Shown here: positions 7,093 through 31,430 of the stretch, piece after piece | Numbering within the stretch: the stretch's first letter is position 1 | Layout: the number at the start of each line of letters is the position of its first letter | Source: Gammaproteobacteria bacterium | Lineage (GTDB): Bacteria; Pseudomonadota; Gammaproteobacteria; Steroidobacterales; Steroidobacteraceae | Direction of reading: 5' to 3' | DNA length: 64,000 bases | Assembly: GCA_025357835.1 (NCBI GenBank) | Contig: JANYLM010000081.1 | Span: 1 to 64,000 of the forward strand | Program-made: the position numbers and the translations under genes | The notes under the pieces: model-generated | Told to the model about the DNA's origin: nothing | Database searches by the model: none | What the model saw: only the letters and a program-made list of their open reading frames with translations

Positions 7093-7103
7093 GTGCCGCA
7101 CCT

Positions 7104-7580: not shown

Positions 7581-7592
7581 AAGGCATAGCCG

Positions 7593-9653: not shown

Positions 9654-9664
9654 GGAGTGCTGAA

Positions 9665-10441: not shown

Positions 10442-10702
10442 GGGTCAGCGCACCGGGCGGTATTGACTCCACGCTGGGTTTTTGCCGAAGCGGCCCTGCA
10501 ACGGCCGACGGTTTCGACGATCTTGATCGGTGCGCGCAATGAGGCGCAGTTGCGGGAAAATCCAGGCGCGATCGGCTGGAACCTGACTGTGGATCAAGCG
10601 GCTCGGCTGGATGCCGCAAGCCGCATTTTGCCGCCCTACCCCTACTACCCCTACTGGAATGGACAATTCTCGGAGCGCAATCCGCCGCCGGTGCAGCCCT
10701 AG
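10442..10702 (+). pseudogene. Aldo/keto reductase remnant (C-terminal end only)
   Basis: Directly after caiD the frame encodes about 80 residues that match only the end of aldo/keto reductases: WVFAEAALQRPTVSTILIGARN, then QLRENPGAIGWNLT and the terminal ERNPPPV. The N-terminal 240 or so residues with the catalytic Asp-Tyr-Lys-His set are absent, and there is no convincing start codon or ribosome site. It is best read as the scar of a deletion that removed the rest of the gene when caiD or the block to the left was joined here. Confidence 0.7.
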
Positions 10703-12762: not shown

Positions 12763-12790
12763 TGCTACTTCCTCACTTGTGGAACGCGCC

Positions 12791-13414
12791 TCATTTAGAG
12801 CGGGAGCCGCGGCCCGCGCCGCGACTGGCCCATTGATGTAAGAGGTCCAGCTGCAACTGTAATTGTTCGACTTGCTTCGCAGCCGGCCAATCTCCCGGAC
12901 TGGTGACGGCGCTTGCGGTCAGCCCATTGATGCAGGTGACCACCGAGCGCAGTACTTGGTCGCGCACCGACAGCGGCCATACCGACCATTCCCGCCAATG
13001 TTCGGCGAAGCAACGTGCATACAAACGCATGTACTCGCGGTGCACCCAGACATTGAGCCGTTTGAGATTCTTGTCCGCCGACACCTGGCCCCAAAAAGCC
13101 ATCCAGAAGGCACTTTCGGTGAAGCGCTGCTTATCGATGGCCAGCGTCTCCGACAGCACCGCCAGGAGGTTGGCTTCACTGTTCTCGCGTTCACGGGTGA
13201 GTCTTTGTTCGATTCGCAGCAACGTCAGCCGCAGGGCGGCCAAGATGATGTCCTGCTTAGACTCGTAGTAATGCGCCACCATGCCCGTTGTATAACCCGC
13301 GCCGCGGGCAATGCGGGCCACCGTTGCCTGCTCGAAGCCGTAGTGTGCGACCACCTGGCAGGCGACGTGGGCAATCTCGTCGCGCCGCTGGACGTGATCG
13401 ACGATTTTCGGCAT
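12791..13414 (-). CDS. TetR/AcrR regulator of the BetI type, carnitine operon
   Basis: This 207-residue protein has a TetR helix-turn-helix at about 30-52 (ATVARIARGAGYTTGMVAHYYESK) and the BetI-like effector-domain run SAFWMAFWGQV near 100. That run is also in the BetI half of the fusion at 634-2709 and suggests a quaternary-ammonium ligand. It lies between L-carnitine dehydrogenase (6 bp upstream) and the acyl-CoA dehydrogenase (28 bp downstream), so it most likely autoregulates this operon in response to carnitine or an intermediate. Confidence 0.88.
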   Translation of the reverse strand: MPKIVDHVQRRDEIAHVACQVVAHYGFEQATVARIARGAGYTTGMVAHYYESKQDIILAALRLTLLRIEQRLTRERENSEANLLAVLSETLAIDKQRFTESAFWMAFWGQVSADKNLKRLNVWVHREYMRLYARCFAEHWREWSVWPLSVRDQVLRSVVTCINGLTASAVTSPGDWPAAKQVEQLQLQLDLLHQWASRGAGRGSRSK

Positions 13415-13420
13415 GGCGCG

Positions 13421-14905: not shown

Positions 14906-14997
14906 GATTCCAATCCTCGCAAACGCTACGATCTTTGTAATGTCATGAGTATAATATAAAAAACAGAAATAGCAGCAGCGAGAGCCTTTGGGTATCC

Positions 14998-16137
14998 CTA
15001 AGGCGAATAGCTCTTACTACTCAGCACGCCTGCAATCGGCAGTGCCGCCTTGGGCACGTCATGGTGGTAGTCCTTACCGACGCACGCGGCCACCGTTGCC
15101 GCGATCTGCGCTTGTGCCACGGGGGCGACTTGGGTTCGCTCACCTAGAGGCGCCGTGTCGGGGCCGAGCACCGCGATCCAGACATTCTCCGAGCCTTTCT
15201 CTTCTACGCCGTGGTCCTTCCACTCGGTGAGGCCGCTGCCCCGCCCATGGTCGGTGGTGATGATGAAGGTCGTGTTGCCATGGTATTCAGGCATGGCCTG
15301 CATGGTGTCCCACAACTGGTGCACGAAATGATCCATGCGATGCGCACTATCGAGAACCAAATCGTATCGGCCCTGGTGAGCCCAATTGTCGGTCTCGCCA
15401 TAGCCTACGAATAGCACACGCGGGTGCTGCGCCTTGACATAGTCTAACAGCGGTATTTGCAGCAAGGAATTGTCGACGTCCTCTTCATCGAAGCGCGTCG
15501 TGGTGTCGTAGAGTTCATGCAACAAGGCGTCGCGCGGCGTCTCATGCGCCTTGTGCGGCAGGTTCCACCCCGTCTGCATCACGAGCCCGCTGCGGTTCTT
15601 GTTGAAGATATTGTCGTAAACACTCCAGGTACCGTAGATCGCAACTTTGCCGCGAAACTCGTCGAACTTGTTCAGCCATTCGAAAACGGATGCATTCGGG
15701 TTCGGCCCGAACTCATTGCTGTCGATGGCGTCGTTCGGATAGCCAGTGGACATTTCGTTGTAACCTGGGTAAGAAAACGCCTTTCCATTGGTAACGTGCG
15801 CGACGCTGCCCTTCAATTGGTTGCCGTAAATCTGCCCTTGCTTGGCCACCACTCCCCATAGAAAAGGAAACAGCAACTCACGCCGCGCGTCGATGTCCTC
15901 GCGCCAGTAGCGCTTGCGCAACTGCGGCTGAGGCAGCCAGCTGCCGCCCGCCTTCTCGTTCAGAAGGCTGGGGTCCGCACCGGTGAATATCTCCTGCCAC
16001 CGTAATCCGTCGCTCACGATCAGCACCACGTTTTGCGTTCTTCCCGCCACCGCCTGTCCCGAACCGAACGACAGCAGTACGCCGAAACCGAATGCGGCAC
16101 CTAGAGTATTGATAAGGGAACCGTATCGTCGTTTCAT
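14998..16137 (-). CDS. Exported alkaline-phosphatase-superfamily hydrolase
   Basis: The protein begins with a basic stretch and hydrophobic signal peptide (about 1-31, cleavage near AVAG) and then shows the superfamily metal sites: Asp43 in VLIVSDGLRW, GYGETDNWAHQGR, and TTDHGRGSGL with a further His in DHGVEE. The usual nucleophile region reads FSYPGYNEMSTGYPND, so Ser or Thr there would take the phosphoryl or sulfuryl group. It probably hydrolyses a phospho- or sulfo-ester in the periplasm; the substrate cannot be told. ATG 16137 directly precedes the signal peptide; the frame opens at TTG 16179 but that start lacks support. It ends the leftward run that starts with the aminotransferase at 23054, after a 49-bp gap. 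Confidence 0.8.
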   Translation of the reverse strand: MKRRYGSLINTLGAAFGFGVLLSFGSGQAVAGRTQNVVLIVSDGLRWQEIFTGADPSLLNEKAGGSWLPQPQLRKRYWREDIDARRELLFPFLWGVVAKQGQIYGNQLKGSVAHVTNGKAFSYPGYNEMSTGYPNDAIDSNEFGPNPNASVFEWLNKFDEFRGKVAIYGTWSVYDNIFNKNRSGLVMQTGWNLPHKAHETPRDALLHELYDTTTRFDEEDVDNSLLQIPLLDYVKAQHPRVLFVGYGETDNWAHQGRYDLVLDSAHRMDHFVHQLWDTMQAMPEYHGNTTFIITTDHGRGSGLTEWKDHGVEEKGSENVWIAVLGPDTAPLGERTQVAPVAQAQIAATVAACVGKDYHHDVPKAALPIAGVLSSKSYSP

Positions 16138-17334: not shown

Positions 17335-18537
17335 CTAGAACTCCGCAGGCGGGGTCGCGCGACGGCGCTCTGGCGCAAAAAAGGGACGCTCGACCACCTG
17401 TGCTCGCGACATTCGGCGCTCCCATACGAGTTCACGGTTCAAGTAGATTTCCGCCCAGACCGTCGAGCCGATCTGGAAGTGCGGTGCATCGACGATAGCA
17501 AGAGCGATGTTGCGCTTGCAAGTCGGCGACCAAATCGCCGAAGTGACGCTGCCGATCTCGCGTTTGCCGCTGTCGTCGGTATAGAGAAGCGCATTGTGGG
17601 CCGGCTTGTTGCCCGCGATGTCCAGGCCGACGAGCTGGCGGCGCGGCCCTTGGGTCTTCTCCTGCAGCAGTGCACGCCGCCCCGTGAAATGTCCCTTGTT
17701 GAAATCCACCAGCCAACCAAGACCGAGTTCCAGCGGCGAACGATCGCGTCCGGTGCGAATAGTGTGTTCGGCGGACACAAAATCGACGTTTGGTAACAGG
17801 AATCCGGCTTCGATGCGGGCGACATTCAGCGCCTGCGAACCGATGGCGCGTATGCCCCGCGAACGCCCCGCCTCCATCAAAGCGTCCCAGAGACCCAAGG
17901 CGGCCCCTGGCTCCATCCATAGCTCGTAGCCCAAGTCCCCGGTAAAACCCGTGCGGGACACGGTCAGCGGATGGGCTCCGAGCATGAAGTAGCCGATTTC
18001 AAACGGCTTGAGTTTCTCGACCCCCCACAAACCCATGGTCTTGAGTACCGCACAAGAGGTAGGACCCTGGACCGCCAGCGCGGCTATCTGTTCGGTAACC
18101 TCGACGATCTGCACGTCGAAGCCAATCGCGGAATCGAGCAGCCAGTCGATCTGGCGTTCCGCGGTGCAAATTCGATAGTCGCTCTCTCCCATGCGAAAGA
18201 TGGTGCCATCATCGATGAGATGCCCCGCATCGTTGCACCACACGCAGTACGCGACTCGATCCGGCCTGAGCTTGGCGACATCTCGGGTCACCAGGCGATT
18301 AAGATAGGGCATCGCTTCTGGACCCGACACGCGGTACTTCACCATCGGTGTCAAGTCATACAGCGTCGTGGCATTGCGGATGGAGAAATATTCCTGCTCC
18401 ATCGTGGAGAAGACGTCTACCGTCGTATATCCCGCCCACGGAACGAAGCTATCAATCTGGGAGAGCGCGCGGGCACGCTCGTGAAACGGAGTTTTGAGCA
18501 GCGGTTGCTTGAAGTGCGGCGCAAGGGATTCGGTCAT
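17335..18537 (-). CDS. GcvT-like folate-dependent aminomethyltransferase
   Basis: This 400-residue homologue of the glycine-cleavage T protein has the folate-binding N-terminal domain with the acidic turn around GHLIDDGTIFRMGESDYRI (in part), the second-domain motif SRTGFTGDLGYELWM, and a C-terminal barrel (KRNIALAIVD...). T-protein-like enzymes pass a one-carbon unit from an N-methyl or aminomethyl group to tetrahydrofolate. It is not glycine cleavage T itself: no gcvH or gcvP accompanies it. Instead it sits 4 bp after two flavoprotein oxidoreductases and 5 bp before a polyamine-type ABC ATPase, pointing to oxidative demethylation of an imported N-methylated amine. ATG 18537 directly follows the upstream stop; the frame opens 16 codons earlier inside the neighbour. 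Confidence 0.82.
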   Translation of the reverse strand: MTESLAPHFKQPLLKTPFHERARALSQIDSFVPWAGYTTVDVFSTMEQEYFSIRNATTLYDLTPMVKYRVSGPEAMPYLNRLVTRDVAKLRPDRVAYCVWCNDAGHLIDDGTIFRMGESDYRICTAERQIDWLLDSAIGFDVQIVEVTEQIAALAVQGPTSCAVLKTMGLWGVEKLKPFEIGYFMLGAHPLTVSRTGFTGDLGYELWMEPGAALGLWDALMEAGRSRGIRAIGSQALNVARIEAGFLLPNVDFVSAEHTIRTGRDRSPLELGLGWLVDFNKGHFTGRRALLQEKTQGPRRQLVGLDIAGNKPAHNALLYTDDSGKREIGSVTSAIWSPTCKRNIALAIVDAPHFQIGSTVWAEIYLNRELVWERRMSRAQVVERPFFAPERRRATPPAEF

Positions 18538-18541
18538 TGAT

Positions 18542-20119
18542 TTAGCTCGATTTGAGTACTTGTTGTGCGGCATTGCGACCGGCAACGCCCATCACCCCGC
18601 CGCCAGGATGGCAGCCGGCGCCGCACAGGAACAAGCCGTCCATGGGCGTACGGTACTGAGCCGCCCCCGGCACCGGGCGCACCATCAGGAATTGATCGAA
18701 GGCCAAATCCCCGTGATGCCAGTGCCCACCGCTAATGCGAAACTCCTGCTCAATATCGGCCGGAGTCAGCAGCTCCGCCCCAACGATGCAGCCGCGAAGG
18801 CCGGGTGTAAATTTTTCCAATTGCTTCAATGCCGTGTCCATGAAACGCTGCCGGCCGCTCTGCCAACCCTCCTTCAGCGCATACGGTGCATATTGCACAA
18901 TGGCCGACAACACATGTTGTCCGGCCGGCGCCAGCGTCGGGTCATTAGCCGTAGGAACGGTGATTTCCATGATGGGTGCCCCTGAAAATTCGCCGTATTT
19001 CGAGTGATTGTAAGCGTGCTCGATGTGCTGCAGCGAGGGTGCGATGAGCAATCGGCCGCTCAAGGCCGATCCATCCACACCGCTGAACGCCGGCGCTCGA
19101 TTCAATGCCAGATGCAGCTTGGCGGCCAGCCCGTGAGAGCGAATATGGTTGACTCGACGCACGAAGCCGGTGTCGAGATAACGCGCACCCAACAGGCGCA
19201 GAAAGGTCACCTTTGGATCGGCACTGGAAATCACGCTGTGCGCACCGATGCTTTCGCCGGATTCGAGCACTACTCCGCAGGCGCGATCGCCCTCGACCAC
19301 AATGGTCGCCACCGGCGCGCCGGTACGTATGGTAGCGCCGGCCGCACTCGCCGACTTGGCGAGCGCGTCGCACAGCGCGCCCATGCCGCCCTTGGGCTGC
19401 GACAGCCCCGCAGCTCCCGCCGCGGATTGACCCGCCAGTCGATATAGCAGCGTCAACACGGTGCCGGGCGAGCGAGGCCCTAAATTGGCGCCCAGCACGG
19501 CATCGAAACCCAGCGCTCCCTTGAGCGCCGCCGAGTCGAAGTTCTCCTCGAGCAAATCATAGACATTCATGCCGATGATCCGCAGCAGCTCGCGCATGTC
19601 GCGCCTGCCCAGCTTGCGTATCTCCCAGCCTATCCGCAACATCGACAGACGGTCGGCCCAGGCCGTCGTGCCCAGGCGCGGGGGTAGCCGCGACAACATC
19701 GGCGCCAGGGCTGCGGCGAAACGCCGCATGCGAGCGGTATAGACCGCATAGGCCTGAGCGTCCGCAACCGACAGTCCCTGCTGTGCCTCCTCCAGCCCCA
19801 GACCTAGGCCCCCGCCGCCGACGACCACCGCCGTACTCGGCATGCCACGCGCCGCCCATTCCAGGCCATGCGCTTCGAGCTGTAATTCACGCGACAGATC
19901 CGCCGGCATCAGATGCAGCAGGTGCGCGCCGGCCGAGACGCGGAAACCGGGCGCGAACTCTCGCGTCAGCGCCGCTCCGCCCACCTGGGCCCCGGCCTCG
20001 AGCACCAGCACCGAGCGGCCGCCGCGTGCCAGCAAGCCTGCGCACACCAGCCCATTGTGACCGCCGCCGATGACGACACAGTCGTAGCGCGATTGCGTTG
20101 TCGAGGCAGCGACGGTCAA
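18542..20119 (-). CDS. FAD-dependent oxidoreductase, PYROXD2/CrtI-like (copy 1)
   Basis: This protein of about 525 residues has the N-terminal dinucleotide motif VIGGGHNGLVCAGLLARGG, followed by LVLEAGAQVGGAALT, and ends with the flavin-contact motif LCGAGCHPGGGVMGVAGRN. Both mark the phytoene-desaturase-like amine/desaturase flavoproteins. The substrate is unknown; the GcvT-like gene 4 bp downstream suggests oxidation of a C-N bond. TTG 20119 overlaps the stop of the second copy by 4 bp and is the best start, since residues before it belong to the neighbour's reading frame. The two copies are clearly related, with different N-terminal lengths and moderate divergence, so they may form a heterodimer. 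Confidence 0.82.
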   Translation of the reverse strand: MTVAASTTQSRYDCVVIGGGHNGLVCAGLLARGGRSVLVLEAGAQVGGAALTREFAPGFRVSAGAHLLHLMPADLSRELQLEAHGLEWAARGMPSTAVVVGGGGLGLGLEEAQQGLSVADAQAYAVYTARMRRFAAALAPMLSRLPPRLGTTAWADRLSMLRIGWEIRKLGRRDMRELLRIIGMNVYDLLEENFDSAALKGALGFDAVLGANLGPRSPGTVLTLLYRLAGQSAAGAAGLSQPKGGMGALCDALAKSASAAGATIRTGAPVATIVVEGDRACGVVLESGESIGAHSVISSADPKVTFLRLLGARYLDTGFVRRVNHIRSHGLAAKLHLALNRAPAFSGVDGSALSGRLLIAPSLQHIEHAYNHSKYGEFSGAPIMEITVPTANDPTLAPAGQHVLSAIVQYAPYALKEGWQSGRQRFMDTALKQLEKFTPGLRGCIVGAELLTPADIEQEFRISGGHWHHGDLAFDQFLMVRPVPGAAQYRTPMDGLFLCGAGCHPGGGVMGVAGRNAAQQVLKSS

Positions 20120-21729
20120 TTTGCCCGCCCCAGGTCGCGCAGCACCGCACGAGCCGCATTGGCGCCGGGCGCGCCCATGACGCCGCCGCCCGGATGCGTG
20201 CTGGAACCGCACATGTACACGCCGCGCACCGGCGCTCGGTACTGTGCATAGCCCGGCACCGGCCGGTTGAAGAGCAGCTGATCCATGGTCAATTCGCCCT
20301 GAAAGATATTGCCTTCGGTGAGCCCCACTTCATTCTCGATATCCCAGGGCGTACGAATTTCGGCATGCAGAATCAGTTCTTTGAAGTTGGGGCTATGCTG
20401 CGCAATAGTGTCGATCACGGTATCGCCGAAGGCCCTGCGTTTGGCGGCGTCCCAGGGACCGTCGGCCAACTCATAGGGACAGTATTGAACGAAGACGGAC
20501 ATGTAGTGCTTGCCGTCGGGAACCATCGTCGGATCGATCTGCGAGGGAATGAGCATGTCGATGTAGGGAGCCCGCGACCAACGTCCGTCCTTCCAATCGT
20601 CATAGGCATGCTCCATCATTTCGATGGTATCGGTGACGTGCATGTCGCCGCGAATGCTGGGTGAGCCCTCTGGTATGGCCGGGAACCGCGGCATGCCGTC
20701 CAGGGCGATGTTCAGTTTTCCAGACGAGCCGCGAATCTTGAAGTTCTTCACCTGCCTTAGGAACTCGTCGGGCAAGTCTTTGGAATCCATGGTTTCGAGA
20801 AAAGTCCTGCGCACGTCCAGATTCGAAATCACCAGCGGCGCATGAATTTCCTCGCCGCCCGCCAGCGCGACTCCGGACGCGCGCCCGTTGCGCACCAGGA
20901 TTTTCGCGACGGGCGCCGCGCTGCGGATCGTGCCCCCGCTGGCCTCGAACGACGCGCCGAGCGCCTTGGTGATGGAGCCCATTCCGCCGCGCGCGAAGCC
21001 CCAGGCGCCTACCGTGTCGTCGATATCACCCATGTAATGATGCAACAGCACATAGGCCGTACCGGGCGAGCGCGGCCCCAGGGCCGTGCCGATGATGGAA
21101 CTGCCGGCGAAATGCGCCTTGACGATTTCGCTCTCGAAATATTCGTCGAGAAAATCCGCGGCGCTCATGGTCCAGAAACGCAGTGTGTCGTACATGCGCT
21201 CTTCGCCCAGGCCGTGGAAACGCCTGCCGAGGTACAGCAATTCCTGGATATCGCGCGGCTTGAAGGACGTAGGGTCCGGCGGCTCACGCATGAGCAGCGG
21301 CTTGATGAACTTGCACTGCCGCATCACGTCGCGGGCATAGCGATCGTAGGCTTCCGCATCGCGCGTCGAATGCCGGGCGATCTCGCGGCGCAGCGCGTCG
21401 TGATTGTCGTAATTGGCCAGATGCCCACCGCCCTGCATCATGGTGACTCCGCCTTCGTAGGGAATCACCTGCAATCCATACTTCGGCAGCTCGAGAGTGC
21501 GAATGATCTCGGGCCGCAGCAAGCTGCACACGTACGAGCAATTCGAGTACGTGAAATTCTCGTACAGCTGGCGACTGACCGCCGCACCGCCGATATAGGG
21601 CTGGCGTTCAAGGACCAAAACCTTGAGCCCCGAACGCGCGAGATAGCATCCGGCGACCAAGCCGTTGTGGCCGGCTCCGACAATGATGGCATCCAGGTCC
21701 CTAGGCGTTCGCACGGCGCCGCCGCTCAA
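20116..21729 (-). CDS. FAD-dependent oxidoreductase, PYROXD2/CrtI-like (copy 2)
   Basis: This 537-residue paralogue of the next gene has AIIVGAGHNGLVAGCYLARSG and VLVLERQPYIGGAAVSR at the N-terminus, and the closing motif CGSSTHPGGGVMGAPGANAAR. No signal peptide is seen, so it should act in the cytoplasm. Its start overlaps the aminotransferase stop by 4 bp (ATGA) and its stop overlaps the first copy, so three genes are translationally coupled. A role in oxidising an N-methyl amine or desaturating a small substrate is inference from the GcvT-like and transporter neighbours; carotenoid synthesis is unlikely because no crtB-like gene is here. Confidence 0.82.
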   Translation of the reverse strand: MSGGAVRTPRDLDAIIVGAGHNGLVAGCYLARSGLKVLVLERQPYIGGAAVSRQLYENFTYSNCSYVCSLLRPEIIRTLELPKYGLQVIPYEGGVTMMQGGGHLANYDNHDALRREIARHSTRDAEAYDRYARDVMRQCKFIKPLLMREPPDPTSFKPRDIQELLYLGRRFHGLGEERMYDTLRFWTMSAADFLDEYFESEIVKAHFAGSSIIGTALGPRSPGTAYVLLHHYMGDIDDTVGAWGFARGGMGSITKALGASFEASGGTIRSAAPVAKILVRNGRASGVALAGGEEIHAPLVISNLDVRRTFLETMDSKDLPDEFLRQVKNFKIRGSSGKLNIALDGMPRFPAIPEGSPSIRGDMHVTDTIEMMEHAYDDWKDGRWSRAPYIDMLIPSQIDPTMVPDGKHYMSVFVQYCPYELADGPWDAAKRRAFGDTVIDTIAQHSPNFKELILHAEIRTPWDIENEVGLTEGNIFQGELTMDQLLFNRPVPGYAQYRAPVRGVYMCGSSTHPGGGVMGAPGANAARAVLRDLGRAN

Positions 21730-23054
21730 GCGGTCACTTTGTGCGTGGCGCCGCCCGACTTCAATGTGACATCCACCGCGATCTCGAAGCCTTTCAGCGT
21801 GTCGGCGAGGCAGGATGCGTCGTGCGCCGCGGAGACGAACCAGGGCTCTCGCGAATCGGGCTCACACAGCACGCCCTCATCGTGCAGCACCTGCGCCATG
21901 GCATCGTAGAAAGAATAATCGCTGCTCTTCCAGGCGCGATAATTGCGCGGCGGCTCATGCGCGAAATACAAGCCGCTCATGGACGGATGGCCGACGAAGC
22001 TATGGGCTATCCCCCGCGCGCTGAGCGCGGCGCGCATGCCATTGCGCAGGCGAGTGCCGTAATCGGCGATTCGCTCCAGCGCATCGGTCTCATCGAGAAT
22101 CTGCAGGGTCTTCTCCGCGGCCGCCAGGGATATGGAATGCGCGGTATAGGTGCCGCCGTGCGCCACGCCATTGCCGATCTTGCGCATGATTTCCTCGCGG
22201 CCCGCGAGCACGGATATGGGATAGCCATTGGCCACGGCCTTGGCGAAGGTGCAAAGATCGGCGTTCACGCCGTACAGTTCCTGCACGCCGCCGCGCGCGA
22301 CTCTGAATCCGGTCTTGACCTCGTCGATGAGCAGCACCACACCGTGCTTGTCGCACAGGGTCCTCGCGGCTCGCAGATATTCCGGATCCGCGGCTATCCC
22401 CAAGCAATTACCCATGATGGGTTCGATGAGCAGGCAGGCGATTCGATGCGAGTGACGCTTGAAAACGTCTTCCAACTGATTCGCATCATTGGCCTGCACG
22501 AAGTGCGCAAAGCTGCGGGTGCTGAGCGGCACACCTTCGCTGTACGGCTTAACTTCGGGGTCGCCCACCTGCGACCATTTGTCCATAGGGGTAAACCACA
22601 TGGCTGCGTCGAACAGCCCGTGATAGCCACCCTCCAGAATCACATAGTCGTCTTTGCCCGTGTAGGCGCGCGCCAGGCGCAGGCCCGCCATAACGGCTTC
22701 GGTACCGGAGTTGGAGAAACGCACGAGTTCGGCGGCAGGCACCATTTTGGAAATGCGCTCGGCCACGGTGAATTCGCGTTCGGTGGACAGGGCAAACACG
22801 CCCCCCACTTGCATGCCTTCGCGGGCCGCTTGATCGACTTCCGGGTGGGCGTAACCGAGAATCGCCGGACCATAGCCCATGCGGTAGTCCACGTATTCAT
22901 TGTCGTCGAGATCGGTTATGCGCGCGCCGACTCCGCGCTTCACATAGATGGTGCGATCCTCTCCCCAGTAGCGGAAATTGGACGCCACCCCGAGCGGCAG
23001 GCGCTTGACGGCGCGTTGGAATTGCGCATTGCTCTTGGTCAGTTTTCTGGCCAT
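21726..23054 (-). CDS. Class III aminotransferase, HemL-like
   Basis: This 442-residue PLP enzyme resembles glutamate-1-semialdehyde aminomutases and related transaminases: RFSNSGTEAVMAGLRLARAYTG (in part), LIDEVKTGFR, and the PLP-binding lysine in CTFAKAVANGYPI. It is the first gene of a leftward unit with two flavoproteins, a GcvT-like protein, a transporter ATPase and a secreted hydrolase, and overlaps the next start by 4 bp. It is not the heme-pathway enzyme by context; transamination of an amine or amino-aldehyde from the imported substrate is more likely. Confidence 0.85.
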   Translation of the reverse strand: MARKLTKSNAQFQRAVKRLPLGVASNFRYWGEDRTIYVKRGVGARITDLDDNEYVDYRMGYGPAILGYAHPEVDQAAREGMQVGGVFALSTEREFTVAERISKMVPAAELVRFSNSGTEAVMAGLRLARAYTGKDDYVILEGGYHGLFDAAMWFTPMDKWSQVGDPEVKPYSEGVPLSTRSFAHFVQANDANQLEDVFKRHSHRIACLLIEPIMGNCLGIAADPEYLRAARTLCDKHGVVLLIDEVKTGFRVARGGVQELYGVNADLCTFAKAVANGYPISVLAGREEIMRKIGNGVAHGGTYTAHSISLAAAEKTLQILDETDALERIADYGTRLRNGMRAALSARGIAHSFVGHPSMSGLYFAHEPPRNYRAWKSSDYSFYDAMAQVLHDEGVLCEPDSREPWFVSAAHDASCLADTLKGFEIAVDVTLKSGGATHKVTA

Positions 23055-23318: not shown

Positions 23319-24485
23319 ATGACCAACGCATCCGTCGCAAAGCGCGCCGACGACTCGCCAAGCGCCTTGCCGCACGCACTGCCCGCCTGGGTCTACAACA
23401 ACCGCGAATTGACTCGTCTGGAACTCGAACGCATTCTCATGCCGAGTTGGCAGATCGTGTGCCATGTCAATTCCATCCCCAAGACCGGCGATTACGAGAC
23501 CTTCGATTTGGGTCCGGAAAGTGTCATGGTGCTGCGCGATCGCGATGGTTCCGTACGCGGCTTTCACAATGTGTGCCGGCACCGCGGAGCCCGCTTGCTG
23601 GACGGCTCGGGAAACTGTCCCGCCACCATCACCTGCCCCTATCACGGTTGGACCTACCGGCAGGACGGCGCTCTGATCGGTATGCCCGTTCGCGAGAGCT
23701 TTCCCGGACTCGATCGCACCGAGCTTGGGCTGCGTCCGGTTCGGACCGACATAGCCTTCGGTTTCATCTTTGTCTGCCTTACCGGCGACCCTCCGCCGGT
23801 GTCGCAGGTGTGGGGGCGCTTGGCCGAGGAGCTTCTGCCCTATAGGCTCGAAGCGATGGTACCGATCGAGCCCATTTCCCAAGAGACGTGGCACGTCGAT
23901 TGGAAGATAGCGATGGACAATTACCTCGAGTCCTATCACGTGCCTATCGGTCACCCCGGGCTGTATCGCATGTTTACGCCGGACTATGAAGACCAGGCTT
24001 CGGTGCCGGGCGTCGCCCGAGGCACTAGCTGGCTGCGCGACCAGGCATCACCGCGCTGGGCGGAAGGCTTGTATCAGCGGATGATAGGCGGTGTCGCCAC
24101 GCACTTGCCCGAAGAGCAGCGCCGCTGCTGGCGCTTCTACAGCGCACTGCCGAACTTGGGGCTTGATGTGTACCCCGAGCGCATGGACTTCTTCCAGGTG
24201 TTGCCGGACGGCCCAGGCCGTTGCATCGTTCGCGGCGGCGTGTTCGGACTACCCGATGACCGCCGCGAAATGCGCGCCATTCGTTACTTGAGCTCGCGCA
24301 TCAACACGCAAGTGAATAACGAGGACAAGTGGCTCTGCGGCCGTGTGCAGCGCGGGCTCGCCTCCGGCAGCTACAAGCCGGGACCTCTATCGCAGCTCGA
24401 ACGTTGGATGCACGAATTCCACAATCTACTGCGCGAACGCATTCCGGAATTCGCTCTGGCGAACGCGCCAAAACACTTTGGTTGA
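23319..24485 (+). CDS. Rieske non-heme iron oxygenase, alpha subunit (GbcA/CMO-like)
   Basis: The 388-residue enzyme has the Rieske [2Fe-2S] ligands Cys86, His88 (CRHRG) and Cys106, His109 (CPYHGW), and a mononuclear iron site His207, His212 (ESYHVPIGHPG) with Asp336 as the likely third ligand. Glu204 occupies the position that bridges the two centres, where naphthalene dioxygenase has Asp; Glu is also found in carnitine and glycine betaine oxygenases. Family members remove N-methyl groups or hydroxylate quaternary amines with O2 and electrons from a separate reductase. No reductase gene is in the window. It stands alone, facing an aldehyde dehydrogenase. Glycine betaine, stachydrine or a similar betaine are candidate substrates. 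Confidence 0.88.
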   Translation: MTNASVAKRADDSPSALPHALPAWVYNNRELTRLELERILMPSWQIVCHVNSIPKTGDYETFDLGPESVMVLRDRDGSVRGFHNVCRHRGARLLDGSGNCPATITCPYHGWTYRQDGALIGMPVRESFPGLDRTELGLRPVRTDIAFGFIFVCLTGDPPPVSQVWGRLAEELLPYRLEAMVPIEPISQETWHVDWKIAMDNYLESYHVPIGHPGLYRMFTPDYEDQASVPGVARGTSWLRDQASPRWAEGLYQRMIGGVATHLPEEQRRCWRFYSALPNLGLDVYPERMDFFQVLPDGPGRCIVRGGVFGLPDDRREMRAIRYLSSRINTQVNNEDKWLCGRVQRGLASGSYKPGPLSQLERWMHEFHNLLRERIPEFALANAPKHFG

Positions 24486-24650: not shown

Positions 24651-26150
24651 TTAGCCCAGATTGATCCAGGCGGACTTTGTCTGCGTGTAAGAAATCAGGC
24701 TCTCTACGCATTTGTCGCGGCCTTGACCTGACTGTTTGTAGCCGCCGAAAGGCTGGGTCATGTCGCCATGGTCGAAGCAATTCACCCAGATGACACCGGC
24801 TTCGAGATCGCGGACGGTCTTGTGCGCCACGCTCAAATCGCGCGTCCACACCGATGCCGCCAGCCCATAGATCGAGTCATTGGCCACGCTCAGTGCTTCG
24901 GCCAGCCCATCTACCTCGATGGCGGCCGCCACTGGGCCGAAAATCTCTTCTTGCGCGATGGTCATGCGGTTGTTGACGCCGGAAAACAGAGTGGGATTGA
25001 CGAAGGCTCCGGGCAGATCCGGCGAGCTGCCGCCGAACTCCAGCCGCGCTCCTTCGGATTTGCCGCGGGTGATGTAGCTCATGACCCGCAAACGGTGCGC
25101 CGCGGTCACCAGCGGACCCAAATTAGTGGTCGGATCGAGGGGATCGCCGGCCCGATAGGCATCCTTGCCGCGCTCGATAAATCGCGCCAAAAACTCCTTG
25201 GCGATGGGTTTGTCGAGCAGCAGCCGGGATCCCGCGTTGCACACCTCACCCATGTTTCCGTAGATACCGTTGATGGCGTAGGTCACGGCCGTGTCGAGAT
25301 CCGGCAGGTCGGCGAGGAATATTTGCGGAGTCTTGCCGCCGCATTCGAGGCTGACGCGTTTCATATTGGATTGGCCAGCATAAATCAGCATTTGCTTGCC
25401 GATTTCGGTCGAACCGGTAAAGGCAATCTTGGCCACGTCGTTGTGCAGCGCCAGCGCCGCGCCGGCGGTTTCGCCCAAGCCGTTAACCACATTGAACACA
25501 CCCGGCGGCCCCCCTGCCTCAACGAACAGCTGCGCCATCAGCAATCCCGACAGCGGCGATTGTTCGGCCGGCTTCAAAACCACTGAATTGCCAGCGGCCA
25601 GAGCCGGCGCGACCTTCCAAGCAGCCATCAATAGGGGGTAATTCCACGGCACGATGCATCCGACCACGCCCAATGGTTCGCGCAGAATGTAGTGAAATGC
25701 GTCCGCGGCGGTGGCGGTCACCATGCCGTCGATCTTGTCGATCAATTCGCCAAAGTAGGCGAAATTGCGCGCCGCCGCCGGCACATCAATGGTCACCATA
25801 TCGGTGATGGGCTTGCCCATGCACAGAGTATCGAGCAGCGAAAATTTCTCAGTATTCTCTTCCAGGAGCCGGCTATACGCCGCCATGACCGCCATGCGAT
25901 CGCGTGGCGCCTTGCGGCTCCAGACGCGCGACGCGAAGCTGCGCTTGGCCGCGGCCACGGCCGTGTCGATGTCGGCCGCGGTGCCGGCGCTCACCTCGCA
26001 TAGGGGCGCTCCGGTAGTGGGATTCACGACGGTGAATCGGCCGCGGGCGATTGAATCCACGTATTGACCATCGATGAAATGCCGAGTCTCGAAGCGCAGG
26101 CCGGCGGCGCGCGCATGCCAGTCTTTGGTAGTCAGAGAGGTCAAACTCAT
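24651..26150 (-). CDS. Aldehyde dehydrogenase (PuuC/BetB-like)
   Basis: This 499-residue NAD(P)+-dependent aldehyde dehydrogenase has oxyanion Asn in VPWNYPLLMAAWK, general base Glu in SLECGGKTPQIFL, and nucleophile Cys in GNMGEVCNAGSR. It most resembles the aminoaldehyde branch (gamma-glutamyl-aminobutyraldehyde and betaine aldehyde dehydrogenases), fitting oxidation of an aldehyde made from an amine by transaminase or oxygenase. It is 55 bp downstream of the TetR-Rieske fusion on the same strand and so probably co-transcribed with it, as BetB is linked to BetI. GGGAG 8 bases upstream supports ATG 26150. Confidence 0.9.
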   Translation of the reverse strand: MSLTSLTTKDWHARAAGLRFETRHFIDGQYVDSIARGRFTVVNPTTGAPLCEVSAGTAADIDTAVAAAKRSFASRVWSRKAPRDRMAVMAAYSRLLEENTEKFSLLDTLCMGKPITDMVTIDVPAAARNFAYFGELIDKIDGMVTATAADAFHYILREPLGVVGCIVPWNYPLLMAAWKVAPALAAGNSVVLKPAEQSPLSGLLMAQLFVEAGGPPGVFNVVNGLGETAGAALALHNDVAKIAFTGSTEIGKQMLIYAGQSNMKRVSLECGGKTPQIFLADLPDLDTAVTYAINGIYGNMGEVCNAGSRLLLDKPIAKEFLARFIERGKDAYRAGDPLDPTTNLGPLVTAAHRLRVMSYITRGKSEGARLEFGGSSPDLPGAFVNPTLFSGVNNRMTIAQEEIFGPVAAAIEVDGLAEALSVANDSIYGLAASVWTRDLSVAHKTVRDLEAGVIWVNCFDHGDMTQPFGGYKQSGQGRDKCVESLISYTQTKSAWINLG

Positions 26151-26205: not shown

Positions 26206-27876
26206 TTAAACGTCGTTTGGCGGACGCGGGCGCGCCATCATGGGCAGGCGCGCGAGCAATTGGCGCCGGAACGCGGCCGCCGCAGGCGCAGCCTGCGCCC
26301 CATCCGCGGCCTCGTGACCAAAAGTGACCATGCCTTTCTGCGTCGATTCCGCGACGGCGATTGCCGAGAGCCGGGTATACGGATTCAGACGCGCCGCCAG
26401 ATATTGCGCGGCGCGCGCGGATCTGTCGGCCTCGCACAAGGTAAAGTCGAACCGCCGCAGCAGACTGCGGCCGGGCCCAGTAGGCAGCACCTGCAGAATG
26501 GAAAAGCCATCGGGCCTCAGTTCGATCAAGTGATTCGGCGCAAGGAAGCGCCGCTGCCAGTGAAAATCCGCCGCAGGTCCCAGCATGCGTTGATACCCGC
26601 GAACGCTCCAGTCATGAGCGTCGGCAGGGCGCGATCCTCCGATCATCGCCGATTCGAGCCACTGTTCAATCACCAGCTTCCAGTCCGCGGCGACGGCGCT
26701 CTCGGCCGGCGACCCTTGCGGCGATGCCGACGATTGCCCCAACAGCCGCGCTCCCGGCGGCGGCGAGAAATCGGCCCATGGATCCGCAGCCTGCGCTCGC
26801 GGACGGCGCTCCGCGGGGCGCACCAAGATCAAGTTCTCCACCCTGCGTAATTCCAGGGCTGCCAGATCTGCCGATCCTCGCCCACCGCGGCGTCTGCCGT
26901 CGAGTTCGAATTGCACGCCGTGAACCGTGCACTGAATGAAACTCAAGTGGCCGGCGCGCGCCGCATTCAATGTGTGCGGCGCCTCGCTGCAGCTATTACG
27001 AAACGCGCGCACCTGCCCCTCAGCATCGCGCACCACCAGTGCACGCTCGATGCCCAGATCAATGCCGAGAAAATCGCCGGGGCGAGGGATTTGCGCCTGG
27101 TCCGCGACAAGCTGCCACGATTCCTGGAACAATGACTCTCGCTCGACGGCGAACAAGCCGGCATTGGCGTATGCCCACCCCGCGAGGCGCCAGTCGCCTC
27201 CCGCGATACCGGCTGCCTGCGGCGCAACGGCGAATTGACCGGGGAAAATCGAGCGCAGGTAGGCCATGGCACGGCCCTTGGCCGCGGCGCGATCGATTTC
27301 CGCCTCGGTTCGAAACGCAAAGTCCTGCCAAAGAATTTCCAATAAGCCGATGAGCCCAAGCGCGATCCCATCCGGATCCAGTTGCGGCTGGGAGGTATCA
27401 ACGATGAGCCGCTCGATGAGCTCGCGCACCAAGGTCGCAAAGCTCTCGTCCTTCTGGCCGCAAATATCGTAGTATTCCTGCCGTGAACTCGCCTCGCCCC
27501 AGAATGAATACCAGACCGAGACTTTGCGAGGGCTGGCGATTTCCGGGTCGAGGTACAGATCAACCATCAGCTTGAGCGCGGCGACCGGGCTGGACTTGAG
27601 CCGCGTGACGGGCACCAGCAATTGCTCCTCGAACTCGGCTGCAAGGAATTGCAGAGACGCGACCAGCATTGCAGCTTTGGAGGCGAAGTAGAATCGGACG
27701 ATGCCGGGGGACATTTTCGCAATGGCCACTACTTTTTCCACCGTCGTTCGCGACGGCCCGTAGATATGTAAAGCGGAAATGCAGGCTTCGATCAGCCGCT
27801 GGCGCTGCCGGCTGTGGGCATTGCGCGCGCGGGGTATACGAGCAGGTTTGTGGGGTTTTTTCTTGAGATTACGCAT
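26206..27876 (-). CDS. TetR regulator fused to a catalytically dead Rieske oxygenase domain
   Basis: Residues about 22-215 are a complete TetR regulator (HTH about 44-64, TTVEKVVAIAKMSPGIVRFY; BetI-like SVWYSFWGEAS near 120). Residues about 228-556 align with the Rieske oxygenase at 23319-24485 throughout: WQLVADQAQIPRPGDF, the cysteine regions, DWKLVIEQWLES, ILQVLPTGPGR. The cluster ligands are Cys296, Glu298 (His expected), Cys316 and His319. The mononuclear iron ligands are all lost: Met411 and Arg416 replace the two His, and Ala505 aligns with the Asp. The fold is kept but not the chemistry, so I infer that the domain now binds substrate, or reports iron-sulfur or redox state, for the TetR part. 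An aldehyde dehydrogenase follows; ABC permeases start 18 bp away divergently. The domain reading and ligand losses are seen directly; the sensor role is inference. Confidence 0.9.
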   Translation of the reverse strand: MRNLKKKPHKPARIPRARNAHSRQRQRLIEACISALHIYGPSRTTVEKVVAIAKMSPGIVRFYFASKAAMLVASLQFLAAEFEEQLLVPVTRLKSSPVAALKLMVDLYLDPEIASPRKVSVWYSFWGEASSRQEYYDICGQKDESFATLVRELIERLIVDTSQPQLDPDGIALGLIGLLEILWQDFAFRTEAEIDRAAAKGRAMAYLRSIFPGQFAVAPQAAGIAGGDWRLAGWAYANAGLFAVERESLFQESWQLVADQAQIPRPGDFLGIDLGIERALVVRDAEGQVRAFRNSCSEAPHTLNAARAGHLSFIQCTVHGVQFELDGRRRGGRGSADLAALELRRVENLILVRPAERRPRAQAADPWADFSPPPGARLLGQSSASPQGSPAESAVAADWKLVIEQWLESAMIGGSRPADAHDWSVRGYQRMLGPAADFHWQRRFLAPNHLIELRPDGFSILQVLPTGPGRSLLRRFDFTLCEADRSARAAQYLAARLNPYTRLSAIAVAESTQKGMVTFGHEAADGAQAAPAAAAFRRQLLARLPMMARPRPPNDV

Positions 27877-27894: not shown

Positions 27895-28836
27895 ATGACA
27901 TCAGCCATAAACGACACACACATTACGTCCCCACCCGGGCCGCGTGCAGAGTGGCTGAAGCGCCACGGGAAGTGGCTCATTATCCTGCCGCCCCTACTCT
28001 TTCTGTTGGTCTTCTTTCTCATTCCCTTTGGGTTTGCCCTCAGCATCAGCTTTGCCGACACGGCGATACGGGTGCCGCCCTTCACGGATATTCTATCCGT
28101 CGACCCCGACTGGCACATCCACGTCACGCTGAATCTCGCCAATTTCAAGTACTTGTTCACCGACGAAGTGTATGGCCTTTCGTACCTTTATTCGCTCAAG
28201 ACTGCGTTTTTCTCCACCGTTATCTGCCTGCTTATAGGTTATCCGATGGCCTATGGCATCGCTCGCACATCCAAGAGTACACAAAGCATCCTGTTACTCA
28301 TCATCATTCTGCCGTTCTGGACCTCCTTCCTGCTGCGCGTCTACGCGCTCGAGGGCATTATTCGAGAAACCGGGTTGCTCAATTCGGCCCTGCTCTGGTT
28401 GGGCATCATCGCCCATCCGCTGCAAATCATGCGCACCAGCCTGGCGGTGTACCTGGGAATCATCTATTCCTACCTGCCCTTCATGGTCTTGCCTCTGTTT
28501 GCCACTCTGGAGAAGCTGGATCATTCCTTGCTGGAAGCGGCCGGCGACCTGGGCAGCCCCCCATGGCGAGCCTTCCTCGAGGTGACTCTGCCCTTGTCCG
28601 TGCCGGGTATCGTCGCAGGCTCCATGCTCGTGTTCATTCCGGCCATCGGGGAATTCGTCATCCCGACCCTGCTCGGCGGCCCGGATAATCTGATGATCGG
28701 ACGAGTGCTGTGGGACGAGTTCTTCGGCAACCGCGATTGGCCCGTTGCCTCCGCGGTGGCCATCGCATTTCTGGTGCTTTTGGTGGGCCCCATCGCTGTT
28801 TACCAGCACTACAGCACCAAGCAGCTTGAGGCCTAA
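27895..28836 (+). CDS. Polyamine-type ABC transporter permease (PotH/PotB family)
   Basis: This 313-residue inner-membrane protein has an N-terminal cytoplasmic tail, about six transmembrane helices (first at about 27-50, IILPPLLFLLVFFLIPFGFA) and an EAA loop EAAGDLGSPPWRAFLEVTLP that docks on the ATPase. Sequence style matches putrescine/spermidine permease subunit 1. The second permease gene starts 1 bp after its stop codon. Its ATPase is encoded far to the left (16187-17329) and its binding protein to the right on the other strand (30318-31430). Confidence 0.9.
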   Translation: MTSAINDTHITSPPGPRAEWLKRHGKWLIILPPLLFLLVFFLIPFGFALSISFADTAIRVPPFTDILSVDPDWHIHVTLNLANFKYLFTDEVYGLSYLYSLKTAFFSTVICLLIGYPMAYGIARTSKSTQSILLLIIILPFWTSFLLRVYALEGIIRETGLLNSALLWLGIIAHPLQIMRTSLAVYLGIIYSYLPFMVLPLFATLEKLDHSLLEAAGDLGSPPWRAFLEVTLPLSVPGIVAGSMLVFIPAIGEFVIPTLLGGPDNLMIGRVLWDEFFGNRDWPVASAVAIAFLVLLVGPIAVYQHYSTKQLEA

Positions 28837-28837
28837 C

Positions 28838-29668
28838 ATGGAGAACCGCATCTCGCCCCTGCTGGTCTCGGTTCTCTGCATCGGTATCGCGATTCTGTAC
28901 ATCCCCATCCTGGTGCTGATCGGGTATTCCTTCAACGCCTCCGCCCTGGTGAGCGTCTGGGGCGGCTTCTCGACCAGCTGGTACACCGCGCTTCTGCATA
29001 ACGACCAGATCCTCGACGCGGCATGGCTGTCGCTGAAAATCGGCGTCGTGGTGTCGACCGGGTCGGTCATTCTGGGCACTCTCGCCGCGATTTCCCTGGT
29101 GCGGTTCAAAATATTCCGCGGCCGGCTGCTGCTCACGGGAATGGTCAACGCGCCGCTGGTCATGCCGGAAATCATCACCGGTATCACCCAGCTGCTGCTG
29201 TTCGTCTCCATGCTGCAGGTCCTGGGGTGGCCGCACCGCGGCTTCACCACCATTGTGATAGCGCATATCGCCTTTTGCAGCGCTTACGTCACAATCACCG
29301 TGCAATCGCGGCTGGCGAGCGCCGATCGTTCTCTGGAAGAAGCCGCCATGGACCTAGGGTCGGGTCCGGTTCGCGCCTTCATCGACACCACTCTGCCCAG
29401 CATCGCTCCGGCCCTGGCTTCGAGTTGGCTGCTTAGCTTCACGCTGTCGCTCGACGATTTAGTGATATCGAGCTTCGTGTCCGGACCAGGCGCAAGCACC
29501 CTGCCCATGGTGATTTTCTCGAAAGTGAAATTGGGCGTAAGCCCCGATGTCAATGCGTTGGCCAGCTTGATGATCGGCCTGGTCGGCGCCTGCGTGCTGT
29601 TCGCCGGCTATCTCATGCGCCGCACCGAGCGCCAGCGGATACTGGACGCGCAGATGGCCGAACGCTGA
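28838..29668 (+). CDS. Polyamine-type ABC transporter permease (PotI/PotC family)
   Basis: This 276-residue partner permease has six predicted helices and EAA loop EAAMDLGSGPVRAFIDTTLP, followed by the PotC/PotI hallmark SFTLSLDDLVISSFVSGPG. It forms the heterodimeric pore with the preceding gene. ATG 28838 is separated from the upstream stop by a single base; the open frame runs further left only as an out-of-gene extension. Confidence 0.9.
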   Translation: MENRISPLLVSVLCIGIAILYIPILVLIGYSFNASALVSVWGGFSTSWYTALLHNDQILDAAWLSLKIGVVVSTGSVILGTLAAISLVRFKIFRGRLLLTGMVNAPLVMPEIITGITQLLLFVSMLQVLGWPHRGFTTIVIAHIAFCSAYVTITVQSRLASADRSLEEAAMDLGSGPVRAFIDTTLPSIAPALASSWLLSFTLSLDDLVISSFVSGPGASTLPMVIFSKVKLGVSPDVNALASLMIGLVGACVLFAGYLMRRTERQRILDAQMAER

Positions 29669-29712: not shown

Positions 29713-30321
29713 TTACGCCTTCCCCACATAACGCGGATCGTGCGCCGGGCGGCTGAATATCTCGCGCAGGCGGGATTCAAACGTGCTCAAGGGTTCCGAT
29801 GGATAGCGCGGGTCGAATGAGCACTGGTCCCAATTGGCGCAGAAATCCATGCAGGTCTGGTACCAGGGGTGGTCGCGAAATTTTTCGCGGGCATTTCGGT
29901 CATGGCCATAGTAGTGACCGTAGTAATAGGTCTGAAACAGCCCATGCTGTTCGACGATCCACGTGACCTCCGGGCGCACATAGGGGCGCAAGATTCCCGC
30001 GGCAATTTCCGAATGGTTGTGCGGCGCCAGTTCATCGCCCACATCATGAATGAGCGCCGCGACAATGAGTTCGTCATCCGCGCCATCTTGCAGGGCGCGG
30101 GTCGCGGTCTGTAAGGAATGACCCAGGCGGCTCACGGGATATCCCTGCAACCCAGTATCCAGTTTGCGCAGCGCGGCCAATAGTCGGTCCGGCAACGCGT
30201 GCATGTATTCGCGTTCAGACCGCTCCAGTAACTCGTAGTCCTCGCGGGTGCCGTCCTCCATCCGGTGAAAGCTCACCGTTCCGGTCCCGGATGGGGTCCT
30301 TTCAGCAGATTTGACAGTCAT
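29713..30321 (-). CDS. HD-domain protein, PhnZ/TmpB-like candidate diiron oxygenase
   Basis: This 202-residue protein has a metal-binding HD set: His68 (RLGHSLQTA), His92-Asp93 (LIHDVGDEL), His103 (HNHSEIA), His126 (VEQHGLFQ) and Asp165 (NWDQCSFDP). Six-ligand HD proteins of this size with the LAPHNHSE-type motif include PhnZ and TmpB, mixed-valent diiron oxygenases that cleave aminophosphonates; TmpB releases glycine betaine from a trimethylamino-phosphonate. That makes an oxygenase role, rather than phosphohydrolase, attractive in an N-methyl-amine island, but it is not shown by sequence alone. ATG 30321 overlaps the stop of the ABC binding protein by 4 bp (ATGA), so the two are made together. 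Confidence 0.8.
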   Translation of the reverse strand: MTVKSAERTPSGTGTVSFHRMEDGTREDYELLERSEREYMHALPDRLLAALRKLDTGLQGYPVSRLGHSLQTATRALQDGADDELIVAALIHDVGDELAPHNHSEIAAGILRPYVRPEVTWIVEQHGLFQTYYYGHYYGHDRNAREKFRDHPWYQTCMDFCANWDQCSFDPRYPSEPLSTFESRLREIFSRPAHDPRYVGKA

Positions 30322-31430
30322 TTGGCGGTCTTCACTCGTGTCCATGCCCGGGTGCGAATGCGTTCAGTCGCGGCGGATGTCTCCGCAGCCCTGTACAGTC
30401 TGCCCTCAATTTCGGGCGTCGGATACAGCGTCGCATCGCCAAGAATTGTGGGATTGATCAACGCGTGCGAAGCGGCATTGTCATTGCCGTAAAAGATTTC
30501 GTTGGTGATTGCGGCAATGACGTCGGGTCGCAGGATGAAATTGATGAATTGGTAGGCCGCCTGCAGATGAGGCGCACCCTCAGGTATCAGCATGGAAGCG
30601 AAGTTTTGGCTGGCTCCCTCCTTCGGTACCGTGAAGGCCAAATTGACGTTGACACCGACAGCCCGGGCGCGCGCCCTGGACAAGGCATAGTCGCTCGACC
30701 AGGACATCGCAATGCAAATCTCCTGGTTCGCCAATGCGTTCAGATACTCGGCGGAATCAAACGAGCGGATGTACGGCCTCACTTTCATGAGCAGGTCCTC
30801 GGCAGCCTTGTAATCCTCCTGCCTCGTGGAATTCGGATCCAAGCCTAAATACCGCATGGCCAGCAGTAAGGTGTCCGACGCGGAGTCGATTAAGGTGACG
30901 CCACAATCGGCGAATTTCGACACAATTTCCGGCTTAAAAAGCATGTCAAGGCTGTCGACCGGCGCGTTCGGCATGCGCGCCTTGATCATGTCGACGTTGT
31001 AGGCGAAACCGTTGATGGCATGCAGGTAGGGCACGGAGTGAGCATTGCCCGGATCGTGTTCGGCCTGGATGGCCAGGGTTCGCCGATCGAGATTCTTCCA
31101 GTTCGGCAACCGGGTCCTGTCCAGCGAGATGTAGACGCCTGCCTTGATTTCTCGCCCAAAGTATTCGGTGGACGCGATCACCACATCGTACCCCGAACTG
31201 CCGGCCAATAGCCGCGCGTCCATGGTTTCCTCGGAATCGTAGACATCGTAGGTCACTTTGATTCCGGTCTGTTTCTCGAATTCGGCGATGGTATTGCGGC
31301 CGATGAAATCCGTCCAATTGTAGATGAAAAGGCGCTTCTCTTCGGCGCCAGCCTTGGGTGCGGCCCCCGCGAGCAAGGCCATCAGCAACGACAACATGAC
31401 TTTGGCGGCCTGATATCGACTGAATCTCAT
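30318..31430 (-). CDS. Polyamine-type periplasmic binding protein (PotF/SpuD family) with altered pocket
   Basis: This 370-residue protein has a signal peptide (about 1-29, AGAEE) and PotF-type sequence: LFIYNWTDFIG, VTYDVYDSEETMDARLLAGSSGYDVV (in part), LPNWKNLD, GNAHSVPYLHAINGFAYN. Compared with E. coli PotF, pocket residues Trp (W39 here), W244 and D247 are kept, but Ser38 is Thr40, Tyr40 is Phe42, and Asp278, which holds one amino end of putrescine, is Ala278. The ligand is therefore probably not a plain diamine; a monoamine, betaine or carboxylated amine would fit. It is expressed with the HD protein and serves the permeases at 27895-29668. Confidence 0.88.
   Translation of the reverse strand: MRFSRYQAAKVMLSLLMALLAGAAPKAGAEEKRLFIYNWTDFIGRNTIAEFEKQTGIKVTYDVYDSEETMDARLLAGSSGYDVVIASTEYFGREIKAGVYISLDRTRLPNWKNLDRRTLAIQAEHDPGNAHSVPYLHAINGFAYNVDMIKARMPNAPVDSLDMLFKPEIVSKFADCGVTLIDSASDTLLLAMRYLGLDPNSTRQEDYKAAEDLLMKVRPYIRSFDSAEYLNALANQEICIAMSWSSDYALSRARARAVGVNVNLAFTVPKEGASQNFASMLIPEGAPHLQAAYQFINFILRPDVIAAITNEIFYGNDNAASHALINPTILGDATLYPTPEIEGRLYRAAETSAATERIRTRAWTRVKTAK

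Follow-up and report, generated by a model that had tools for sequence, protein, structure and literature searches.

The gene at 26206-27876 of the analysed window (the whole stretch of 64,000 nucleotides) encodes a TetR-family protein that continues in frame into a Rieske oxygenase fold. Judged from its sequence, this C-terminal fold cannot be catalytic, as its iron site is destroyed, while conservation among relatives points to a re-ligated metal site, CxxxPH...CxxH, in its Rieske subdomain. The explanation that we consider best, with confidence just short of even, is that the protein acts as a TetR repressor of an amine/betaine island and carries an ex-oxygenase metal module that senses redox or iron-sulfur state. 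The fusion gene and its parts are arranged as follows.

26206..27876, minus strand: fusion gene, 556 aa, TetR plus pseudo-oxygenase; single open frame
27229..27825, minus strand: TetR part, residues 18-216 (HTH approximately 20-66; BetI-type ligand domain 67-216); Pfam TetR_C_6, weak TetR_N
26812..27189, minus strand: Rieske subdomain with N-terminal helix, residues 230-355; Pfam Rieske at 253-335, AlphaFold2 block with pLDDT 82-98
26920..26991, minus strand: proposed re-ligated metal motif C296-x-E298-x-P300-H301 ... C316-x-x-H319; conservation among dead copies
26209..26700, minus strand: eroded catalytic domain, residues 393-556, with triad positions M411, R416 and A505 and bridging E408 present; residue alignment and segment lengths

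The reading frame extended from an ATG at 27876 to a stop at 26206 and contained no internal stops. Pfam assigned TetR_C_6 to residues 97-211 (48.4 bits, cut-off 27) and TetR_N to residues 39-73 (21.3 bits, just below the cut-off of 24), a combination that places the N-terminal part in the TetR family, BetI type. The best NCBIfam match of this part was BetI (TIGR03384), whose equivalog cut-off of 201.3 bits was not reached (68.1 bits). With respect to the features of a Rieske oxygenase alpha subunit, the Rieske domain (PF00355, residues 253-335) was recognised at 39 bits (cut-off 20.3), Ring_hydroxyl_A (residues 437-516) scored 19.6 bits, below its cut-off of 24.9, and both the C-x-H ... C-x2-H motif (position 298 is Glu) and the 2-His-1-carboxylate triad (M411, R416, A505) were absent. 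Neither of the two domains that define MocR/GabR regulators, a wHTH and a fold-type I PLP enzyme domain, was found in the fusion by Pfam. An AlphaFold2 model, calculated from a 58-row alignment of the window sequence, 50 other dead fusions and seven intact ones, had a mean pLDDT of 90, with the HTH modelled as helices at pLDDT 94-96. A second model, of an intact fusion and built from eight rows, had a pLDDT of 79.8 and was not drawn on as evidence. In Foldseek searches, the C-terminal part matched stachydrine demethylase (4qur, E 6.2e-15) and the carnitine monooxygenase CntA (6y9d). Reading frame, Pfam, AlphaFold2 and Foldseek agreed with the original claim that a TetR protein and a Rieske oxygenase fold form one polypeptide.

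Related loci were collected by scanning named genomes with an alignment of 14 dead fusions, and the best 80 of the 144 relatives found were analysed. They comprised 57 dead fusions, in which TetR and Rieske/oxygenase-like sequence without the triad share one frame, seven intact fusions and 16 TetR genes without a recognised fused Rieske domain. Full-length frames were present in 49 of the dead loci; the other eight were cut by contig ends (L048, L063, L086, L096 and L099), carried a stop (L077) or were degraded (L092 and L094). Among the 16 TetR-only loci, L116 was frameshifted and L117 was cut by a contig end. Addition of the window and L034 to the dead fusions, and of L043 and L044 to the intact ones, gave a full comparison set of 59 dead and nine intact copies. 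With the same architecture at so many loci, chance or an assembly error is, on sequence grounds, a very unlikely origin of the fusion. In two loci, the in-frame TAG of L077 (at about 8930) and the different frames of the TetR and Rieske parts of L116 (7866-9601) reflect either recent decay or sequencing error. The source genome measures 4.0 Mb in 148 contigs; among 60 genomes searched, this one included, 50 gave some match, which in many cases covered just one half. Fusions that were full length or cut by a contig end were found mostly within the genus of the source, the exceptions being G034 (dead), G024 (reduced) and G029 and G030 (both intact). Three loci labelled Acidobacteria (L113), Mycobacterium (L120) and Paceibacterota (L124) are possibly mislabelled or mis-binned, the gene being otherwise mostly proteobacterial.

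For comparison of the active-site residues, an intact oxygenase encoded 1.7 kb from the fusion was available.

23319..24485, plus strand: stand-alone intact partner Rieske oxygenase; ligands kept, own clade

This partner is 25% identical to the fused domain and, with 156 bits against 670 in its match to GbcA, is a distant relative of that enzyme. Cluster ligands and the E/H/H residues were present in all 56 partner enzymes compared, and the Asp in 55 of them. In the fusion, E298 aligned with enzyme residue H88, M411 with H207, R416 with H212, A505 with D336 and E408 with E204. This alignment reproduced the losses originally read from the window, namely of the cluster His and of all three triad residues with retention of the bridging Glu, although the R416 column is soft because a deletion adjoins it. 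The same held across the family: the triad could be read in 55 of the 59 dead fusions and none of these retained two of its three residues. Position 411 ranked 274th of 281 columns by conservation in the dead copies, and the bridging Glu was present in 35 of 55. The W399-P447 segment, formerly the site of both iron His, comprised 49 residues in the window and 21-76 in 51 full-length dead copies (eight of the 59 were set aside), as compared with 84-86 in the 56 partners and 82-84 in the nine intact fusions. The oxygenase fold, originally described as whole, is therefore recognisable as a fold but incomplete in its catalytic domain.

A different pattern was observed in the Rieske subdomain. When residues 223-556 were ranked by conservation, using the 281 columns filled in at least 40 dead copies, C296 and H301 were invariant among copies with a letter at these positions (57/57 each), and P300 (56/57), C316 (57/58) and H319 (56/58) were nearly so. 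In two early-branching dead copies (L083 and L099), H319 is replaced by Asp. The former ligand position 298 ranked 198th and was His in eight of 57 dead copies. Position 301 was Ala, Thr or Ser in all 56 partners, lacked His in 16 stand-alone enzymes taken from elsewhere in the phylum and was His in eight of the nine intact fusions, and H301 therefore probably predates the loss of catalysis. Position 300 was Pro in 56 of 57 dead copies and in none of the partners or intact fusions, two groups that have Gly or Ala there. From this distribution, H301 probably came first, P300 arrived with the dead lineage and position 298 was released from constraint. Position 301 presumably corresponds to one of the two extra cysteines of bc1-type Rieske proteins. 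A review gives the classical motif as Cys-X-His-X15-47-Cys-X2-His and describes the two additional cysteines of bc1-type motifs as non-ligands (PMC11138216).

Total loss of metal binding, first considered in view of E298, was set aside, as H301 and the three other positions are nearly invariant. The original suggestion that redox could be sensed through three remaining cluster ligands overlooked the invariant H301, a fourth potential ligand, and changes accordingly. Among 55 columns that were at least 98% invariant in 65 enzymes, nine persisted in 90% or more of the full set of 59 dead copies (W254, G267, N294, C296, C316, H319, G327, L338 and W399), and 14 when gaps were set aside, which added E245, G309, P447, P465 and F536. 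Neither H88 nor the triad was among the retained columns and most invariant residues of the catalytic domain were gone. The remaining constraint thus appears centred on the Rieske subdomain without being confined to it. Since P447, P465 and F536, which lie in the catalytic domain, are as conserved as the ligand positions once gaps are set aside, fold stability could account for part of the pattern.

The origin of the dead domain was investigated with a 66-row tree of Rieske domains (18 of 59 dead, six of nine intact, 23 of 56 partners, 16 stand-alone enzymes of other lineages and three outgroups). Dead domains formed one clade (100/100) that was joined with five intact fusions at 99/95, and the partners formed a separate clade (99/93). 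The sixth intact fusion, L121, grouped with stand-alone enzymes (100/99) and may therefore be a separate, independent fusion. A quick 128-row tree recovered the same dead and partner clades, with long-branch warnings. An AU test rejected a single clade of dead domains and partners (p 0.019), for a group that was picked after the tree had been seen and with a long dead branch (1.76). In a 66-row tree of TetR parts (29 of 59 dead, six of nine intact), the fusions and TetR-alone copies fell together (97/93). The dead domain had originally been regarded as a copy of the neighbouring active enzyme; tree and AU test rejected that source, and the presence of H301 in intact fusions and the TetR tree agree. 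The appended domain instead appears to be descended from a TetR-oxygenase fusion that was still active.

Every cluster and iron ligand is retained in the intact fusions (L043, L044, L114 and L118-L123), which were found in Inquilinus limosus (L118, L119 and L122), in MAGs and in L120, labelled Mycobacterium sp. KBS0706, which groups with the Inquilinus copies. Homologues with intact iron ligands, named in the original prediction as evidence against it, do therefore exist, nine in number, but most of them stand beside the dead clade as its closest relatives and do not belong to it. One such protein may possibly be both regulator and oxygenase. The intact fusions were rejected as the sole oxygenases of this kind in their genomes: in five of eight genomes other stand-alone enzymes were 38-44% identical to the window's partner, a sixth encoded one that was 36% identical, and the remaining two gave weaker matches only.

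Selection was assessed for six pairs by Nei-Gojobori dN/dS with codon bootstrap, and the upper bounds for the dead domain were below 1 in all six. In the two least saturated pairs (dS 0.25-0.54), values for the TetR, Rieske and catalytic parts were 0.13, 0.23 (0.13-0.37) and 0.41 (0.24-0.67) for L064/L070, and 0.09, 0.28 (0.16-0.49) and 0.42 (0.24-0.74) for L051/L063. Corresponding values for the window and L045 were 0.06, 0.12 and 0.22, which are rough because synonymous sites are near saturation (dS 0.75-1.67). The remaining three pairs gave 0.29-0.51 for the Rieske part and 0.26-0.59 for the catalytic part. In 51 full-length dead fusions, mean column entropy was 0.53 bits in the HTH and 0.92 bits in the rest of the TetR part; HTH and TetR ligand domain were the most conserved parts of the fusion. 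By these measures, the dead domain is under purifying selection, but is less constrained and faster-evolving than the TetR part. A simple pseudogene or assembly error was rejected in view of the 49 full-length frames among 80 loci and by dN/dS values below 1.

The genomic neighbourhood of the fusion consists of transport and catabolic genes.

27895..28836, plus strand: ABC permease (PotB-like), divergent from the fusion; PermB relative in 72 of 83 loci
28841..29668, plus strand: second ABC permease (PotC-like); PermC relative in 68 of 83 loci
30318..31430, minus strand: PotF-like substrate-binding protein; NF007962, 377 bits, under the cut-off of 636
24651..26150, minus strand: aldehyde dehydrogenase, downstream of and co-directional with the fusion; PF00171, E 2.3e-155
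17335..23054, minus strand: catabolic genes (GcvT-like demethylase, two CrtO-like flavoproteins, class-III aminotransferase); profile matches, recurring in many relatives

Only 18 bp separate the ATG of the fusion from that of the divergent PotB-like permease gene, which is a candidate target of the regulator. The 83 loci also contained relatives of the oxygenase (68), PotF (54), aminotransferase (52), CrtO-like proteins (45-46), aldehyde dehydrogenase (43) and GcvT (34), counts that, like those of the permeases, take in fragments and paralogues as well as the domains fused in the intact copies. The aminotransferase also matched GntE (447 bits against 525), but this was not accepted as a clue to the substrate.

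In the preferred explanation, the fusion would be a BetI-type TetR repressor of an island for amine/betaine uptake and breakdown. An operator near the start of the divergent permease gene would be bound, with repression of transport and catabolic genes, and the inducing amine would probably bind the TetR part's own ligand domain. C296, H301, C316 and H319 would hold a [2Fe-2S] cluster (or zinc), His301 replacing the classical His298, and the state of this site, whether set by redox, by iron-sulfur supply or by electrons passing to the partner oxygenase, would alter the grip of the TetR dimer on its operator. Catalysis would be left to a separate intact oxygenase, which almost all genomes examined encode, either close to the fusion or at another site. 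A stronger version, advanced only tentatively, is that this is the first Rieske-derived transcription factor, in which CxH...CxxH was re-ligated to CxxxPH...CxxH for direct sensing of redox or iron-sulfur supply on a TetR protein, and in which a bifunctional TetR-oxygenase became a pure regulator.

Rather unlikely, but the strongest of the rivals, is that the module is a relic of a bifunctional regulator-enzyme whose metal site only holds the fold, the TetR part sensing alone. The full BetI-type ligand domain retained in the TetR part would permit this, and dN/dS reached 0.59 in the catalytic part among the six bootstrapped pairs and 0.64 over the whole domain among the 22 pairs listed. Loss or degradation of the domain also occurred repeatedly (L092, L094, L098 and L100, and scattered TetR-alone rows). 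Since 16 of 80 loci lacked a recognised Rieske domain and TetR-alone rows were nested at several places in the TetR tree, these data imply repeated loss and a domain that is dispensable in some lineages, even when two unclean rows (L092, with a short remnant, and the contig-cut L117) are set aside. Such loss with retention of TetR is the strongest counter-evidence to the preferred explanation, speaks against a vital role and is the reason why the relic retains the probability given here. Against it, full-length frames persist at 49 of 80 loci, all six bootstrapped dN/dS bounds lie below 1, and the fixation of Pro300, near-universal in dead copies and absent from partners and intact fusions, is not what one would expect of a pure relic.

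It is distinctly improbable that the dead domain is a tether which co-assembles with partner oxygenase subunits, the repressor being titrated by the amount or turnover of the enzyme. These oxygenases are trimers. For 47 of the 59 dead copies, namely the window, L034 and 45 of the 57 dead loci, a partner (>400 bits) lay in the same locus. Of the 12 dead loci without partner, nine had less than 3.3 kb of downstream sequence, L054 among them carrying a partner fragment, and L079, L084 and L085, with about 8 kb downstream, contained no partner oxygenase in the locus. A whole-genome search for six of these 12 found the partner elsewhere in five and a fragment in L084, so that all six genomes contained it in some form. 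Tethering is however at odds with the bridging Glu being present in only 35 of 55 dead copies and with the placement of partner and dead domain in different clades.

Least probable of all is the original proposal that the dead pocket binds the oxygenase substrate and signals to the TetR part: regulators of the MocR/GabR group are known to use enzyme folds as effector domains, and the fold resembles betaine-demethylating oxygenases, but sensing through the old pocket is unlikely because the segment is eroded (a variable 21-76 residues, against 84-86 in the enzymes), and most enzyme-invariant residues of the catalytic domain have been lost.

No description of TetR-Rieske fusions or regulators, or of TetR pseudoenzyme regulators, was found in a non-exhaustive search of open-licence literature, in line with the original statement that no regulator of this design was known. 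In MocR/GabR regulators (GntR subfamily), an N-terminal DNA-binding domain is likewise joined to a large metabolic-enzyme fold, with a wHTH and a PLP aminotransferase fold in place of TetR and an oxygenase fold; unlike these proteins, the fusion has lost its catalytic iron site and pocket and has kept an electron-transfer site in altered form. BetI, the TetR-family repressor of choline genes, is not known to carry an oxygenase domain. It shares TetR_C_6 with the fusion and is the best NCBIfam match of its TetR part, which at 68 bits is far from the cut-off of 201. CntA, GbcA and stachydrine demethylase share the fold of the C-terminal part but, unlike these enzymes, the fusion lacks the triad and the first cluster His, and its pocket segment is shorter. 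RsrR is an Rrf2-type protein with neither a TetR nor a Rieske fold. It resembles the proposed regulator as a transcription regulator with unusual cluster ligands, its [2Fe-2S] clusters having a Glu ligand (PMC11138216). In a report on the tetralin genes, the reduced form of the Rieske ferredoxin ThnA3 is negative for catabolic gene expression (PMC3771892). As described there, the ThnA3/ThnY system resembles the present proposal in that Rieske redox state feeds into catabolic gene control, but ThnA3 is a separate ferredoxin acting via another protein and not a domain inside a DNA-binding protein (PMC3771892).

If the preferred explanation is true, a regulator has been built from an oxygenase and not from a PLP enzyme, and the evolutionary steps are visible in living relatives as intact fusion, dead fusion, degraded fusion and TetR alone. 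In this family of regulators from environmental bacteria, a nearly unchanging set of metal-binding residues in a dead enzyme-like domain may then sense metal or redox for control of genes for uptake and breakdown of nitrogen compounds. A sharply defined prediction, a ligand switch in a Rieske-type site, follows from the invariant CxxxPH...CxxH motif, and the intact Inquilinus limosus fusions, as a possible regulator and oxygenase in one protein, are directly testable.

A search for operators by 8-mer counts in 71 upstream stretches identified none; frequent 8-mers were, as judged by eye, mostly also found in antisense permease coding sequence. A word resembling TATTGTGCGCGATAAA occurred in nine of 20 loci tried (L058, L059, L065, L066, L069, L071, L072, L078 and L103), where it and its variants lie approximately 70-150 bp upstream of the TetR part. 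The window contained no match to TATTGTGCGCGATAAA with up to two mismatches allowed, and the word is a possible operator or promoter of a sub-clade. In another sub-clade (L104, L107, L108, L110 and L111), a TetR gene without oxygenase domain lies behind an intact oxygenase gene of the same orientation, which is another way of arranging the TetR-oxygenase pair.

The window contains a second regulator-enzyme fusion (637-2736, minus strand), in which a BetI-type TetR continues in the same frame into a complete aldehyde dehydrogenase (PF00171, E 2.6e-179) that keeps its GQxC and ELGGK motifs. In several relatives, TetR matches were located in open frames of about 700 aa. The interval 2812-15013 encodes a glycine-betaine ABC transporter, whose OpuAC and permease parts share one frame, together with BKACE, ATP-grasp/CoA ligase, ECH, acyl-CoA dehydrogenase and a fusion of 3-hydroxyacyl-CoA dehydrogenase with thioesterase, a gene set that we take to resemble a carnitine/betaine catabolism island.
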